From Coniochaeta sp. PMI_546 (taxonomy: Eukaryota; Ascomycota; Sordariomycetes; Coniochaetales; Coniochaetaceae): a stretch of 64,000 nt of DNA. Position 1 is the stretch's first letter, and every line of letters begins with the position of its first letter. The stretch spans positions 1,178,001 to 1,242,000 of the forward strand of contig MU271146.1 in assembly GCA_021432605.1 (NCBI GenBank). Direction: 5' to 3'. The position numbers and the translations under genes are program-made. Under the pieces are notes generated by a model. It did not search any database. It was not told where the DNA came from and saw only the letters and a list, made by a program, of their open reading frames with translations. Positions 50,432-58,168 of this stretch are shown in pieces.

Positions 50432-51825
50432 CTATTTCAGCATAGAATCAGGAACCTCCATTCCTCCCCACTCAAGGACCCGGAAATTTCTCCTATCCCA
50501 AGAGTTTACATCAAACTCAATGGTCTTAGCCCAGTCAAATGATTGAGCCTCGGTACGCGTGCAGGTCGTTCCGCCCCATGGACTTCCAGGCTCGAGAGGC
50601 GACACCCCGCCAAAAAGCATGAATATGCGCGCGATTGCGGTAGGAGGAGGACAGCCGGTGATCTCGAGCCTCGCCGCCCTGTTGAATGCATCCTGGCTGA
50701 CAAAGCGGAATGCTATGTACAAGCCCTGGTCTCTGATATGCTGAAACCGGGGCAACCAGTATATAATGAACTCGGTTCGCATTGCGGGAGTGAGGCATAA
50801 GCCCTCGAGAATGCATTCGAGACAAGGGACAAAGTCCTCGAAGGACAGCACGCATGCGTTTTCCGGCATGAGAGACGGTGTTGAAGGATTGAAGACCTCT
50901 CCGCTTCCGTTGGCAGCATGTGTATCGGCCGCAGTTACCGGAAGGGCCGCTGAAGATTTTCCGGTCTCAGCCTCCCAGAAGAGATAGCTGCACTTTGTTC
51001 CGGTGCTGTAATCAGAAATGGTTTCCCCTTGAACAGAAACGATCCATTCAACTCGCGAAGTGTTGTGTTTCGCGTCTGTGACTGGTTTGGCCAGGGGGTA
51101 GAGGACTGTGAACGACCATTGGGGTGACAGCGTCACAGAGACGTTGACATCTTCCAAGAGAACCGGCGACAGAAGATAAATAGCCGGCTTACCGCCTCGA
51201 AGGGTGAGAACCAGGTGGATCGTACTTCCATCGTGGATGCCATAGTCTTCGAATGCTTTCCCATCGACTAAGCGTTTTCCAGCGAAGACAAGTTGTGTCT
51301 GATCAGGAGGTATGCCTTCTGCAGCACGTATAGCCCACCGAAGCTGAATAATGATCGTAGACGGTTCGCACACGAAACGGATGGTCTTGCCGGGCATGGC
51401 TACAGTACCCAGGTCAGTACGTGATCGTGCTTGGTGGTGGTGAAGTCGAGAGCAATGCTGCTGGGAGACTTACTTTTGACATAGATTCCAATGAGAGAGG
51501 TCCTGTTCTTTTTTCTCTTCATGGCATCTTCGTTGACACAGTGCTGGGGCATCATGGCGACGGGCTCGTCATGCAAACAGCTCTGGGCTGCAGTGGTGAA
51601 CGTGATGTATGAGAGATCCCGCACATCCTCGTAGAACTCCGCTGACAACCCCACAGCTGCGCTGGACCCGAGGTCGGGAAACAAGCGAAGAGAAAGCTCT
51701 GCATCATCTGGGATGGAAAAGCGACGCCGAGCAGCTTCAATGAACCTCTCGTATGTGCTAGGCTTATGGATGATGCGACGCTCCCCCTGGTAGCCGACGA
51801 TGATGCGTTGAACTCGGTTCGGCAT
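50432..51825 (-). CDS. ubiquitin-fold fusion protein A (internal ubiquitin ending LRGG)
   Basis: Function unknown. Exons are 51825-51474 and 51399-50432 (439 residues); the 74-bp intron (GTAAGT...CTGAC...CTGTAG) lies inside the ubiquitin fold and joins GIYVK to TMPGKTIRF. Residues 1-80 form a first small domain ([20 protein letters not shown]). Residues 112-187 align without gaps to all 76 ubiquitin positions ([20 protein letters not shown]), ending in LRGG. Positions K6, K11, K48 and V70 are kept; I44 is Val; K27, K29, K33 and K63 are lost. After LRGG comes KPAIYLLSP, a beta-rich part with YLFWEAE, and a C-terminal domain (about 287-439: [50 protein letters not shown]). It is tandem with paralogue B at 52612. 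Confidence 0.8.
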
Positions 51826-52611
51826 CCTGGCAGGGACCGTCGCGGCAGGACTCTAAGGTAACGCTCTGAACTTGATCGAGATGGTAAGGTCTCGGGCCAA
51901 GATCGCAATATGTGAGGTCTGCTTGTAGGGTCTAATCTCGCTGCTGAATGAACATCAACGAATTCACGAGTCTTGTGCCAACCGTCGTAGACGTCGAGGG
52001 CAATACGGGAATGCGTCCGAGCTGAGAGTGAGGGAATGGTCTGAAATTCAGAGCCGCAATGTGCTAAAAGAAAATAAGGAAGGCGCGGGCCATACTTTTC
52101 GGTATCTGTTAATCTCTACAAACAGTCAGCTCAGATCTTTCTATGGCTGCGTCGGGTCTCTCGGTTCCACTATGAGGTGACAACTTGAGGAGGAAATAGA
52201 AGTAGGCCTCCAGTAAAGAGTTTGTTGGAAATGATGATGGCAAAGGAAACCTCAATTACTGAGATCTTGGCTCCCCGGATGACTAGAAATAGCAGCGGTT
52301 AAGAACGCCTTGATCAAGCCGAAACAAGGCAATAATGAGGATACAAACTTAGGTACGATTCTTCTAGGTCTGGGAATTTCTGGAGGTTCACCCTCACCTT
52401 GTGTGCAAATCGCCGTCAACACATGCCGAAGTCAGGAGTAAGGTGCATCCAGGCCGTGTCAAACATGCGTGAATCTCAGCGGTATGATTGTCTACGTTTG
52501 TTTAGGATACGAAGATGCCCAAGGTACGTCAAGAGAAGACACTAGAAGAACACCATCCCCTCCAGCAAGCCACGGTGTTAGGCCTAAAGCTTCATATACC
52601 CTGAACATCTA
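51826..52611. other. spacer between the tandem ubiquitin-fold genes
   Basis: A 786-bp spacer holding the promoter of gene A and the 3' flank of gene B. I find no third gene copy and no flanking repeats. Confidence 0.4.
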
Positions 52612-53983
52612 TCAGCGCTCTTTGAAGAGAGGAACCTCCATGGATCCCACTTCAACGACACGGAACTTGGTGTCGTCGAGCATCTTCTGAACATCCAGAC
52701 CGATCCTAGCTGCCCAGTCGATCCCCTCAGCCTCCTCCAACGTCAACGCTGTCCGCTTCCACATGGATCTGTCAACACCCCCAAACAGCAGAAAAATGCG
52801 CGAGACCACAGCAGGAATAGGGTGCTGCCGTCCCTCATCGGCTAGGAAGACCTCAATCCTTGAAGCTTGGGAGAAGGCATCTTGGTTGACAAACCGAAAC
52901 GCTATGCAAGGCCAGAACTCAATGATGCGTAGAAGCTGGGGGCTGGTCCGGAGCAGAAAGTCTGAGCGCATCTGGGGCGTAAGGTGCAGCCTGGCGAGCG
53001 TATGCTCTAGGAATGGAATAAACTCGCCAACTCGGAGGACACAAGCATTCGCCAGCGTCAGAGAGGGTGCAGAAGGGTTGAAGATATCGTCTCTGGCTCT
53101 GGGCTGAACATGAGGTAAACGGTTGGGGTCTTCGGAAGTCTCGCCGGTCCAGGAAAGGTAGCGATAGAAATATCGGGGGGGACGGGCACTGATATTATGG
53201 TTGTCACCGTCGGCTTTTATGCTGCCCACAGCGACATCCCATGTGTATGAATGCTCGCGTGATGACTGTATCGGAAGATGGGCGTTTCGAACTGTGAATG
53301 GTGGTACGCAAGAGACAGTCAGGGATATGTTGATCTTGTCGCGTCCGGCTGGCTTCCGCAGGTACATTGCCTGCTTCGCAACTCCAAACCACGTGTCGAT
53401 CTCAATGGTGCCTCCATTCTGCACATTAAGGTCTTGAAGCGTCCTTTCCTCCTCAAGAAGTGATTTGCCTTCGTAGCTCAAGTCGAAGAAGCCATCGTCA
53501 TATCCGATTCTTCTAGCCACGGTTCTCTTCAGATCAACAATGGTGCAGCCGTCCTTGGGGCTGAGCTCGAATTTGCATGATTCATCGTCTAAATGGGTTT
53601 GAATAATTAGCAGGTCTCCAGTTGAGCACAAGAGCAAAACATAACGGCGATAACCTACAAACGATAGTAAGCGTCTCAATCTTGGGCATGGAAGATGCCT
53701 GAGTCGACGCCTGGGGCAGGTCCTCGGGTGGATTGGGAAGGAGGCCGACAGGTGCCCTTGTAGGAAGGTTGAAGGTTATGAAACTGCAGTCTTGAACCAG
53801 GTCATAGTTTTCTGCTACCAGATCGATGCCTTGCTCGGCTGGTCCAGAGTAGTAGCGGGGAAAGAGGCCGACACTCAGAGGAATAGAGAGGTAGCTACGG
53901 GCAACTAGGAGGAGACCATCATAGCAAGCAGGTTTGACTATGAGCCGACGCTGATCCTCATATTGGATGAAGATGTGAGCCAT
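52612..53983 (-). CDS. ubiquitin-fold fusion protein B (diverged, no GG)
   Basis: Function unknown; paralogue of the gene at 50432. Exons are 53983-53659 and 53588-52612 (433 residues); the 70-bp intron (GTAGGT...CTAAT...TTTAG) sits at the equivalent place inside the ubiquitin fold. Domain order is the same: residues 1-75 (HIFIQYEDQRRLIVKPACYD, DCSFITFNL), a ubiquitin fold at about 99-178 (ETLTIVYDESCKFELSP, YEGKSLLEEERTLQDLNV, GGTIEIDTWFG) without terminal Gly-Gly, a beta-rich linker (MYLRKPAG, YFYRYLSWTGET) and the C-terminal domain (FNPSAPSLTLANACVL, CIAFRFVNQDAF, RIFLLFGGVDRSMW, FRVVEVGSMEVP). I chose the ATG at 53983 because it aligns with the start region of gene A; the frame stays open upstream to 54226, so a longer N-terminus is possible. 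Confidence 0.78.
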
Positions 53984-54493: not shown

Positions 54494-57400
54494 CTATTCA
54501 TCATCGCTACTATCAACAAGAAAGCCGCCCATAACCCGTGGCCGTCTCTTCGCCGGCGCAGGGAGAGGGTCGTCATCGTCATTACCGTCCGCATCAGAGC
54601 CAACAACCCGAGATGCCTTCGTTACAGCCTCCAGGGACTTAGCGTGCGGGCTCGACGAGAGCGGCGTATCATCCGTCGTTTCGGCGCCTGACTTCTCCGC
54701 CCTCTCACCATCCAAAGTGTTGCGGGTCGACTGGCTCGAGCCCATCTCATCATCATCACTGCTGTCTATCCGGGCGATGACCTTCTTCTTCCTCTTCCTC
54801 GACTTGGCCACGGACGAACCAGAGGTATCCTCCGCCGAACCATCACTGTCGACGGTGATAACCTCAGACTTCCGCTTCTTCGACTTGGCGGAGGCCTTCA
54901 TCTTCTTCTGCGGAAGATTTTGTGAAGCATGACCTCCACCTTCCCCTTCATCCCCACTCTCAGCCAATAATCGCTTCAGGGTCGAGGACAAGTCCTGCTG
55001 GATCTTCTGATACTTCGCCTCCTCGCGCGCCATGAACTCCTCGTTCCACTCGTTGTCCGTTTCGTCGTCGCTGGGATGGACGTAAAGCTCGCTCTTGATC
55101 TTCCTCGCCTTCGCCAGCTCCCTCTCCCGCCTCTTACGGGCCTTCTCGTTCAGTACTTCATCGTCGACTTCCCCTAGCTCATCAGTCCCCTTCCTCCGCC
55201 GTCTCCGAGTCTTCTTCGGTGCTTTATCTCCGTCGATGACCTTGCGGGCTGTCGGTCCACCCATGGGGAAGAGAGGGCCGTCCTCATCGTCAATGAGGCC
55301 GTCATCATCATCATACACGGCGCGTTTCCTGGGAGCGGTCTTGCGGCGGAGTTGGTCTTCGGCTGATACATTATCTTCAAAAACAGGTGGGCTGAACTCC
55401 GCCTTGTTGATGAGGTCGAGAGACTCCTTGAGTTGGTCGGCTGTGATTCCGGACGGGACGACCCAAGTCGACTCAGGCGTCTCGTCAAGGGTTGGCGCCA
55501 GACGCTCCATACCAACTAATTTCATGAGTAGACGTAGGTGACCGTTCTTGAACATGGCATTACGTCGGGCGTCAGTATCTGGGCGGATGGCTGGAAGACA
55601 ATTAGCATTCGAGGCTTCGATGGTATGTCAGGGTTTGACTTACTGATTGGCGGAGGCAATTTCGCGGCTGCTTCCTCGCTCGTTCCCCCGTCCGCCCCTG
55701 CATCCGGACCCTCCACCGAAGGCATCGCTTTCTCTGCGGCCTCCCAGGCTCTTCGCTCGCTCTCAGCTGAGGCGAGCTGTGTCTTGACCCAGTTGATGTG
55801 GTCTGCTTGATTCTTGTCGAGAAGCGCACCGACCGCGATGGCGACTTGTTGATCATGCTCAACAGTGTGTCGGAATTCGAGCTCCGCAGCGGGCTTTGGA
55901 TTCGAGCTGATGGTCTGCTTCTCATAGCCGTACTCGAGGTAATGCGCGGTGCTATTGATCTTGGAAAAGAGAAGCTCTGTGATCAGAGCCGGCCGCTCCT
56001 CCAGTTTCTTTACACATTTCCGGATGATCTGTTTCACGAGCTCTTCCCACTCTTTGTACATGGAGTTATTCTTATCGAGGGGCTCAGGGCCCTTGATCAT
56101 GTTGTAGAGAAGGTGGATGATGTCGACACGAAAGAGCATGACACTCATCTCGTGCTTGAAGCAGACTCGGTAGAAGTACCGGTGGGCTCGCTTGAGCTGT
56201 GACTCGTCGAGGTCCTGATAGTATCTGGTAAACTTGACAAATGTGTCAACCACACCTTGAGATGTGAAACGGAGAGCGAAGCGATTGAAATCGAATTTCC
56301 GCTCCTTGCTTGTCCGCTCGGCGTTTGCCTCATCGTTTGCTGAATCGTCATCCATATTGTCTTGTTCCTCGCCGTCCTCGTTGCTCACTAATGCTTTGGC
56401 AGCCTTCTTCTTTCTTCGAGTCCTTTTCCTCGACCGAACTGTTAGGTCGACATTCTGCTTGGAGTATGCCTCTAAGATGCGGAGGTATGTATGCGCCAGG
56501 TCGGTGCAAGCATCCAGATACTCAAATCCCTGGTCCTTATACGTCCGCACGATGTTGGCCACAGCGTCATGTGTCGCATCTTCGTAGAATAAGCGGTTAA
56601 GAATATTGTCAGCGATCTCTTCGTCTTCTTCATTTCCCGAGTCGGACATTTCCTGGACGGTTAAGAGAATTTGTGTGTAGGCCTTCATCACGGCAACCAG
56701 ATCTGGCCAGTCCTTGTCATTGTAAGCCCGATCGAGCCAGCGATTTAGGGTAATAAACATCTCCTGGTTAAGGACACTAGCAACGAGATTGAAGCTGCTG
56801 ACGTCGTCCGGCGAATTGTCCGTAGGCTTCTTTTCCTTATTGACTTTGCGTCGCATCCGTTCCGCCTCCAGAAACCAGGCAACCAGGTAAAAGAACTGGC
56901 TTCTATGATAACCGAGAACATGAGCAGCTTCGCGGTCAATCGACTTCCGCACATGTTGAAAGAGGGGGTTGAATCCAGAATCCAGGAACTCCTCGACGAA
57001 CCCCCGTAGTTGTTGGTTTGCCCTATGGTTCAGGGATACAGATGGGCCGAGGTCTTTCGGCTCCATCTCCTCTCTCCTGGATCTTTTTGGGGGCCGGAAG
57101 GTCTTGCTCCTGTCCATCTTCAACTCACGCGTAGCCGAGTCAATCAGGGCATCTTGGCCAGACAGCGAAGTCATCTTGCCGTTCTCTCTCTTTACCCAGA
57201 TCATGGTTCCGAACCTGTTGTGCCTCTTGGGTGCCGTCTTTTGGTAGGAGCGGAGCATGGCAGCTTCCTTTTCCATAGCCGCAGTCAACTCGTCCGCCTT
57301 GGCTCTATTGAGCTGTTGTTCTTCCAAGAACAGCTTCTTTACGTCGACTCTCTTCACCAGGTGGAAGATAATTTCCATGACGATCACATCCTCGGTCCTG

Positions 57401-58168
57401 AAGTCCTCACCCATGTTCGAGGCGATGGTCAGGAGCGTGAGGAAGATATCCTGGTAAGAGAAGGCGTCTATCGTAGCCGAGCGGGAGATTTGAGACTCGT
57501 CCCCCTCATACTTGACGCCAGGAGGCGGGGCAATCATTGCGATGTTCCGTAAAAAGAAGAGCATAAGCTTGATAATGCCCTGGTCTCGAGGCGTCCTTTC
57601 ACCGATGGGCATGGCCATGGACGGCAGAGCTACTCTGACAGCCGTGTGCAAGATTGGCGCACCATCAAAGTTGATAATGGCCCTTTTGTATCCTAATTGG
57701 GCCAGTTGGAGGACTGGAATATGCCGATGGTGGTTTATTGTCATCTGTTCGCGGTTGCGTTCGATGGGCCACGTCAAAGGAACCATAACCTCGTAACATG
57801 CCAGTGCTATCCTGGCCTTGAACTTGCTGTCGCTGCAGTTCTCTGTCCACAAGGCGATAATGTGAAGTAGGTCTCCGCCTACTAAGTTTGCGTCGGCAAG
57901 ACATCTTGCAACGTCCATGCGGTTTGTCTTCTCGTCGTAGAACCGAATCCATCTCCTCATGTCGCGCAGACACTCGAGGGCGTCGTCTCCGAGGGTATAT
58001 TTGCCATCGTCGTCTGCGCTGAAGCCACCGAGCTGAGATGCCGACCACCGTTAGTGCCTTTCAGTGACGGGAAGGGTCCATTGCCGCACTTACAGCAGAG
58101 ACAAGACTGTTGATATGCGCCCGAACTTCCGGATGCACCACATCTCTGTTAATATCTTCGGACTCCAT
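54494..58168 (-). CDS. tof1: replication fork protection protein Tof1/Swi1 (TIMELESS family)
   Basis: Partner of Csm3/Swi3 in the fork protection complex; couples helicase and polymerase and mediates S-phase checkpoint signalling in the nucleus. Exons are 58168-58094, 58032-55644 and 55590-54494, giving 1186 residues, the usual size. The first intron (61 bp) joins HINSLVSA to [20 protein letters not shown]; the last (53 bp) joins KLPPPI to [20 protein letters not shown]. The TIMELESS domain spans about residues 25-330 ([61 protein letters not shown]). Further helical repeats follow to about 850. The last ~330 residues are Lys/Ser/Glu/Asp-rich with many acidic patches, ending SSDDE, as in other fungal Tof1 proteins. 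It shares a 378-bp divergent promoter, with MCB-like sites, with the dehydrogenase gene. Confidence 0.93.

Follow-up and report, generated by a model that had tools for sequence, protein, structure and literature searches.

Two adjacent genes, here called A and B, are arranged head to tail on the minus strand of a 64,000-nucleotide stretch of the Coniochaeta sp. PMI_546 genome (contig MU271146.1, positions 1,178,001 to 1,242,000; hereafter the window). Each encodes a fusion of ubiquitin with an uncatalogued bacterial-type domain (Table 1). The span of 50432 to 53983 given for the pair by a first-pass annotation, which was made from the sequence before the present analysis, is exact with regard to the ATG and stop positions of A and B. 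In BLASTP the two proteins align end to end, including the N-terminal part, with 147 of 448 positions identical (33%; 184 bits, expectation value (E) 8e-58), and judged by this score their similarity is far above chance level. The motifs FNPSxPSL, NACVL, IAFRFVxQDAF, RIFxLFGGV and MEVP, listed earlier as shared, are present in both proteins. Each gene has a single intron, and the earlier placement of the two introns at the equivalent point of the ubiquitin fold agrees with the splice models, which were predicted from sequence alone. Both introns lie where the first ubiquitin strand ends (codon 118 of B, equal to ubiquitin Thr7; codon 109 of A) and both are in phase 1, following 325 nt (A) and 352 nt (B) of coding sequence. 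In A, the donor GTAGGT preserves the frame and the neighbouring upstream GTTTGT would break it.

Table 1. Features of genes A and B (window positions, all on the minus strand)
Feature	Position	Description	Basis
Gene A	53983-52612	ATG 53983, stop 52612; 433 aa; exons 53983-53659 and 53588-52612	In-frame splice model
Intron of A	53658-53589	70 nt, phase 1	GTAGGT...TTTAG
A, N-terminal beta-grasp-like domain	53765..53983	Residues 1-73	Exon 1 identity with B and fold of the B model
A, degenerate ubiquitin domain	53380..53677	Approximately residues 103-178, split by the intron, without C-terminal GG	PF00240
A, C-terminal domain	52615..53376	Residues 180-433, diverged KPVIYLYP-EWGG member	Alignment with B and bacteria
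Gene B	51825-50432	ATG 51825, stop 50432; 439 aa; exons 51825-51474 and 51399-50432	In-frame splice model
Intron of B	51473-51400	74 nt, phase 1	GTAAGT...TGTAG
B, N-terminal beta-grasp-like domain	51589..51813	Residues 5-79	AlphaFold2 model and Foldseek
B, ubiquitin domain	51191..51489	Residues 113-187, split by the intron	PF00240; ubiquitin matches in PDB
B, LRGG tail	51191..51202	Residues 184-187, abutting Lys188 of the next domain	Translation
B, C-terminal domain	50435..51190	Residues 188-439, bacterial KPVIYLYP-EWGG homologue	Bacterial profile, hhalign, tblastn

The C-terminal half of the fungal proteins is homologous to a bacterial domain of about 180 residues with the signature KPVIYLYP...YLFW...EFIVYWLP...VVEWGG. 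When residues 187-439 of B were compared with 72,556 plasmid records by tblastn, one match was obtained, a surface protein of Ruminococcus albus (E 8e-5), and it covered the whole query. For profile work, an alignment of 17 copies from bacteria or phage contigs was built. When the fungal pair was compared with it by hhalign, the probability was 99.2 and E 1.8e-19 over 180 columns; the score of 125.1 compares with a mean of 13.4 and a maximum of 20.0 in 100 column shuffles. A hidden Markov model (HMM) built from bacterial copies only was also searched against the 1,368 open reading frames (ORFs) of the window, the two spliced proteins and the reversals of all of these. It finds B at E 6e-16 (exon-2 ORF) and 1.6e-15 (spliced protein), and the next match, a reversed ORF, has E 4.6. 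The match to B comes in two stretches, model positions 1-64 and 82-178, with a fungal insertion between them. The same model does not find A alone (exon-2 ORF at E 9.1, spliced protein not listed), and A is therefore placed in the domain family through its similarity to B.

In the fungal proteins the domain starts at the Lys that follows LRGG and reaches almost to the protein end, and A and B each end 9 residues after the VEWG[GS] motif. Both end motifs and the motif order are retained with respect to the bacterial copies; the fungal copies carry insertions after YLFW and before EWGG. The first-pass annotation had divided both proteins into four parts in the same order, the last two being a beta-rich linker and a C-terminal domain of about 150 residues. 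The shared order stands, but bacterial homology spans both of these parts, which rules them out as separate units; by the profile alignment they are two halves of one bacterial-type domain. The last ~250 residues thus belong to a bacterial domain family that had gone unrecognized. Both the architecture and the homology are well supported.

The middle part of both proteins belongs to the ubiquitin family according to PF00240 (curated cut-off 25.4 bits), with 61.8 bits for B and 27.1 bits for A, and ubiquitin entries of PDB match the domain of B. Over 70 aligned positions, B shares 37 residues with the ubiquitin of its own genome and A shares 22, the alignment of the first ubiquitin strand of A being uncertain. 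B retains Lys6, Lys11, Lys48, Gly47, His68, Val70, Arg74 and GG, with Val for Ile44 and Met for Leu8 in the patch; Arg42 is replaced by Gln, Arg72 by Thr, Lys27 by Arg, Lys29 and Lys33 by Ala, and Lys63 by Asp. In A, the positions of ubiquitin Ile44, His68 and Val70 are aligned with Ser, Glu and Asp, and FGV stands in place of RGG, so that the junction reads FGVAK without GG. Judged from these residues, B keeps most of the hydrophobic ubiquitin-binding patch, whereas A has lost both patch and tail. The earlier label of a ubiquitin fold is thus right for both proteins but understates B, which ends in LRGG and is about half identical to ubiquitin over the aligned positions. In B no linker separates this tail from the C-terminal domain, whose first conserved residue, Lys188, comes directly after it.

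The genome also contains genes for ubiquitin fused to ribosomal proteins, presumably Ub-eS31 and Ub-eL40 by their sequence. Inheritance of the shared intron from a ubiquitin gene is not supported, since the polyubiquitin and Ub-eS31 genes of the same genome read through that point. In the Ub-eL40 gene, introns apparently occur near codon 3/4 and at the Lys63/Glu64 boundary; the latter would split the ubiquitin unit and leave it broken in single-frame searches.

Upstream of the ubiquitin unit, exon 1 of A and exon 1 of B are 38% identical. Exon 1 of B was modelled by AlphaFold2 on a two-row alignment, exon 1 of A being the only other row, with a mean predicted local distance difference test score (pLDDT) of 66.2; residues 1-80 score 70-91 per ten-residue block and the linker past residue 80 scores below 50. 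The elements of the model follow the beta-grasp order of strand, strand, helix, strand, short helix and strand. In Foldseek its nearest neighbours are the PB1 domain of plant NBR1 (E 3.9e-4), the DUSP-UBL of USP15 (E 4.4e-4) and the RBD of ELMO1 (E 1.2e-3); ubiquitins rank lower, and just two matches have E ≤ 0.001. The N-terminal part gave no sequence-profile match, and Pfam PB1 was absent up to E 1, although the beta-grasp fold expected of a PB1 domain is present in this moderate-confidence model. With moderate confidence, therefore, the N-terminal extension of B is predicted to be a second beta-grasp fold, and the model of B suggests the same fold for A.

A model of the ubiquitin and C-terminal domains of B has a mean pLDDT of 77.8 and a predicted template modelling score of 0.70, with the insertion at model residues 148-172 poorly predicted. 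In a Foldseek search of PDB with this model, the best 50 of 1,121 matches are all ubiquitin or ubiquitin-variant entries, and the search is therefore uninformative on solved relatives of the C-terminal domain. No above-threshold match to that domain was obtained in Pfam, NCBIfam, PHROGs or a PDB profile search. Two candidates were rejected: DUF4223, a sub-threshold Pfam match of 20 residues in 1 of 17 members, and OspA, which a single R. albus sequence matches in PDB at E 0.0094 and which disappears when the profile is used. Twenty columns are invariant among the 17 bacterial-type sequences and 13 when A and B are added. Glu, Arg and Tyr are among the invariant residues, and Cys, His and Ser occur in neither set, which argues against a Ser or Cys protease and makes binding likelier than Ser/Cys catalysis. 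The first-pass annotation knew of no described pathway for this architecture; consistent with that, the motif strings of the domain are unmatched in the literature text searched, and keyword searches gave no title pointing to it.

Bacterial copies form the final module in extracellular enzymes, leucine-rich-repeat proteins and short lipoprotein-like proteins. When 84,980 species genomes were scanned with a single motif, 477 stretches were obtained, of which 459 were confirmed by tblastn; the best 80 of these 459 make up 79 loci, and the titles of all kept loci are Ruminococcus or other Clostridia. In a profile search of one phylum the domain was found in 6 of 398 genomes. The 79 loci yielded 77 ORFs with both end motifs, 76 of them distinct (L083, L099 and L103 gave none). 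Nearly all (75 of 77) end 3-12 residues past the last motif, VEWG[GS], and the other two have longer tails. A hydrophobic N-terminal segment is found in 63 of the 69 ORFs that open inside their locus, at a crude hydropathy threshold of 1.8, and by this measure the bacterial copies mostly look secreted; on the same crude scale, here the test for a secreted context, B scores 0.38 and A 1.93. Pfam partners, scored in 34 of the 69 ORFs (every second one, L037 dropped), are dockerin (24), SH3_3 (15), GH9 (5), CelD_N (5), CBM_4_9 (5) and GH11 (2). Such partners, together with the extreme C-terminal position, are as expected of an accessory module. The small copies L104 (219 aa), L109 and L115 consist of barely more than leader and domain.

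The Clostridia set (L010:3007-3546 and L026-L104) represents an uncatalogued, extreme C-terminal domain of ~180 residues, in many cases with dockerin or GH9/GH11. A divergent subgroup forms its own clade (100/100) and comprises L112, L113 and L116, which read KPNIYIY, and L025, which reads KPNIYLY; it includes a faecal contig deposited as unverified phage. In the available parts of three papers (PMC2930009, PMC4081043, PMC2721979), many Ruminococcus dockerin proteins carry unknown domains, none of which could be matched there to the KPVIYLYP-EWGG domain. CBM37 is described in one of them as unique to R. albus and absent from R. flavefaciens (PMC4081043); on that description identity with CBM37 is ruled out, since the KPVIYLYP-EWGG domain occurs in many R. 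flavefaciens loci.

Viral relatives were sought by fold and by sequence. In BFVD, the model of the ubiquitin and C-terminal domains of B has as its top match the uncharacterized Terrestrivirus protein A0A3G4ZNZ8 (406 aa; E 5e-10), over 257 columns including gaps, with a root-mean-square deviation of 4.7 and a template modelling (TM) score of 0.49 by query length. The other 49 matches listed have TM scores of 0.13-0.23, and from this gap A0A3G4ZNZ8 alone among them seems to cover the C-terminal domain. Terrestrivirus is a giant virus; the likeness of its protein to B, at 20% identity, is known here from the fold match alone. Sequence scans of viral contigs recovered no relative (42 motif-pattern loci tested, best E 0.16). 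Phage records gave no match with B, and with the R. albus domain they gave one unverified faecal contig.

The first-pass annotation ascribed the pair to local duplication, and this is borne out by the same order, strand, intron position and intron phase, by the pair being the sole domain copies found, and by its grouping at 100/100. In the genome (33.5 Mb, 24 contigs), no further copy of the C-terminal domain was found with A or B protein as query, although a very diverged copy could escape these single-sequence searches. B matches 14 places, of which 4 are exons of A and B and 10 are confined to residues 88-194, which cover the ubiquitin unit and its margins; A matches 5 places, the same exons accounting for 4 and a weak match (E 1.1) for the remaining one. 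In a 19-row tree, A and B stand together at 100/100 on a long branch without a settled position among the bacterial rows. The terminal branches are 1.65 changes per column for A, flagged as a long branch, and 0.41 for B, about a fourfold difference. Nine bacterial-type sequences share 98 conserved positions; A alone has lost 20 of these and B alone 2 (p 1.2e-4). Within the ubiquitin unit, A has 27 changes of its own and B has 12 (p 0.024). Misalignment of A would inflate the figures on its side. From these comparisons B is the more conservative of the two copies, and A has evolved fast. The earlier alternative of an old duplication or fast evolution is settled in part only, in that A evolved faster. 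The spread of the domain in bacteria suggests that a fungal ancestor probably acquired it from them by transfer.

Several known proteins resemble parts of this arrangement. In Ub-eS31 and Ub-eL40, as in B, the GG of ubiquitin is joined directly to another protein; B differs in its 112-residue N-terminal extension, its only about half-identical ubiquitin, its replaced Arg72 and its unrelated partner, and A differs in having no GG. The bacterial domain (e.g. R. albus WP_013483720.1) aligns with the fungal C-terminal half over 180 columns and shares its terminal motifs, but is preceded by secretion signals, dockerins, SH3_3 or glycoside hydrolases, whereas the fungal copies are preceded by ubiquitin. 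ISG15 and FAT10 have tandem beta-grasp folds, as B has if the model of the first is right, and in B the second fold ends in LRGG; B differs from them in its long C-terminal domain and atypical position 72 (Thr for Arg72). PB1 domains and the ubiquitin-like (UBL) domains of USP4/11/15 are, together with ubiquitins, nearest to the N-terminal fold in Foldseek, although that part of the protein has no profile match.

The favoured interpretation, plausible but short of probable, is that A and B are intracellular ubiquitin-fold adaptors with a probably non-catalytic binding domain, B being possibly cleavable at LRGG|K and A a diverged copy. The mechanism is inferred. Both proteins would act inside the cell, a location that is assumed, and the C-terminal domain would be a putative ligand-binding module. 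The ubiquitin unit of B, with its patch mostly kept, would tie the ligand of that domain to ubiquitin receptors such as the proteasome, Cdc48 or other ubiquitin-binding proteins, and the N-terminal fold may supply an additional protein-protein contact. Release of the C-terminal domain of B by a deubiquitinase at the LRGG|Lys junction is plausible; for A, without tail and patch, only a scaffold or a changed role would be possible. The homology of the C-terminal half to bacterial domains, its lack of an invariant Cys, His or Ser, its accessory-module context in bacteria, the patch and tail kept in B, and the resemblance of the N-terminal model to PB1 and UBL interaction domains are counted for the adaptor interpretation. 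Several points weigh against it. The hydropathy of A lies just over the threshold of the crude test for a secreted protein. The invariant Glu, Arg and Tyr leave room for acid-base catalysis. Rad23-like UBLs are not known to carry LRGG, and its retention in B exceeds what an uncleaved adaptor would need. In B, the replacement of Arg72 by Thr and of Arg42 by Gln makes a ubiquitin-like reading less convincing. In A the architecture has persisted although patch and tail are gone, so these cannot be essential to both copies. The mean pLDDT of 66.2 and the two-row alignment behind the N-terminal model also count here, as does the absence of any pathway link in the seven neighbouring ORFs scanned.

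The main rival, cleavage at LRGG|Lys, may hold true alongside the adaptor interpretation. On its own it is somewhat unlikely: B would be a ubiquitin-fusion precursor, cut by a deubiquitinase after LRGG to free a C-terminal domain that starts with Lys and to leave a 187-residue protein with two beta-grasp folds, and A would be a copy without processing. The strongest sign for cleavage is that LRGG was kept in B although 33 of 70 aligned positions differ from ubiquitin, and GG immediately precedes the first conserved residue of the partner in B, as in Ub-eS31 and Ub-eL40 of the same genome. Ubiquitin position 72 is important for recognition by ubiquitin-activating enzyme (E1) and deubiquitinases, and Thr at this position in B, together with the loss of GG in A, is the strongest sign against a general need for cleavage; nor does the ubiquitin of B stand at the N-terminus, so the extension before it would prevent the production of free ubiquitin. 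The tandem beta-grasp folds ending in LRGG and followed by a C-terminal extension would also fit a conjugatable modifier with two lobes, of the ISG15 or FAT10 kind, that has the bacterial-type domain as a removable cap, a decidedly improbable proposal given that Thr at position 72 would disfavour the ubiquitin E1, that the extension has 252 residues rather than a few, and that A would be incapable of it.

The loss in A of tail, patch and 20 conserved C-terminal positions kept by B, against 2 in the reverse direction, would be understandable if the pair were an old duplicate without a specific ubiquitin role, the ubiquitin fold being a structural spacer and A on the way to a pseudogene. This is improbable, since both genes keep open frames (433 and 439 codons) and clean introns, A matches B over almost its full length, and B retains the LRGG tail and most of the patch. 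That the likeness to the bacterial domain is due to convergence or chance is very unlikely: identity is low, the HMM match to B is in two separate stretches and A alone is missed (E 9.1), but B stands at 6e-16 among the window ORFs and their reversals with the next match at E 4.6, the hhalign score of 125 compares with a shuffle maximum of 20 in 100 trials, and both end motifs and the motif order are kept. A more far-reaching scenario, quite improbable as it stands, is that a bacterial cell-surface or cellulosomal domain was captured by fungi, put behind ubiquitin and made into an intracellular signalling or modifier system, in which B would be a two-lobe modifier or ubiquitin-linked sensor freed from its bacterial-type cap at LRGG|K and A a non-cleavable partner. 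If it were true, the giant-virus protein of similar predicted fold would point to a wider exchange of the domain among eukaryotes.

The pair links an uncatalogued bacterial surface domain and the eukaryotic ubiquitin system in one polypeptide, and defines a domain without a model in the copies of Pfam and NCBIfam searched. The ubiquitin tail and patch survive in one copy and are lost from the other, a natural contrast that makes the role of ubiquitin in the fusion directly testable.

Contamination is ruled out, as the genes carry introns and sit in a 2.9 Mb contig among the neighbours named below. No functional or pathway link that would indicate a gene cluster was found among the seven neighbouring ORFs scanned, and none connects the TIMELESS-family neighbour to the pair. 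The pair is flanked by a metallophosphoesterase on one side and by TIMELESS and a 3-hydroxyacyl-CoA dehydrogenase on the other; the Pfam scan of neighbouring ORFs also found a Fungal_trans protein, which together with the short introns points to a fungus, probably a filamentous ascomycete. The TIMELESS-family protein (320 bits in Pfam) lies at window positions 55522-58050, upstream of the pair and on the same strand, and probably includes the adjoining ORF at 54494-55627.

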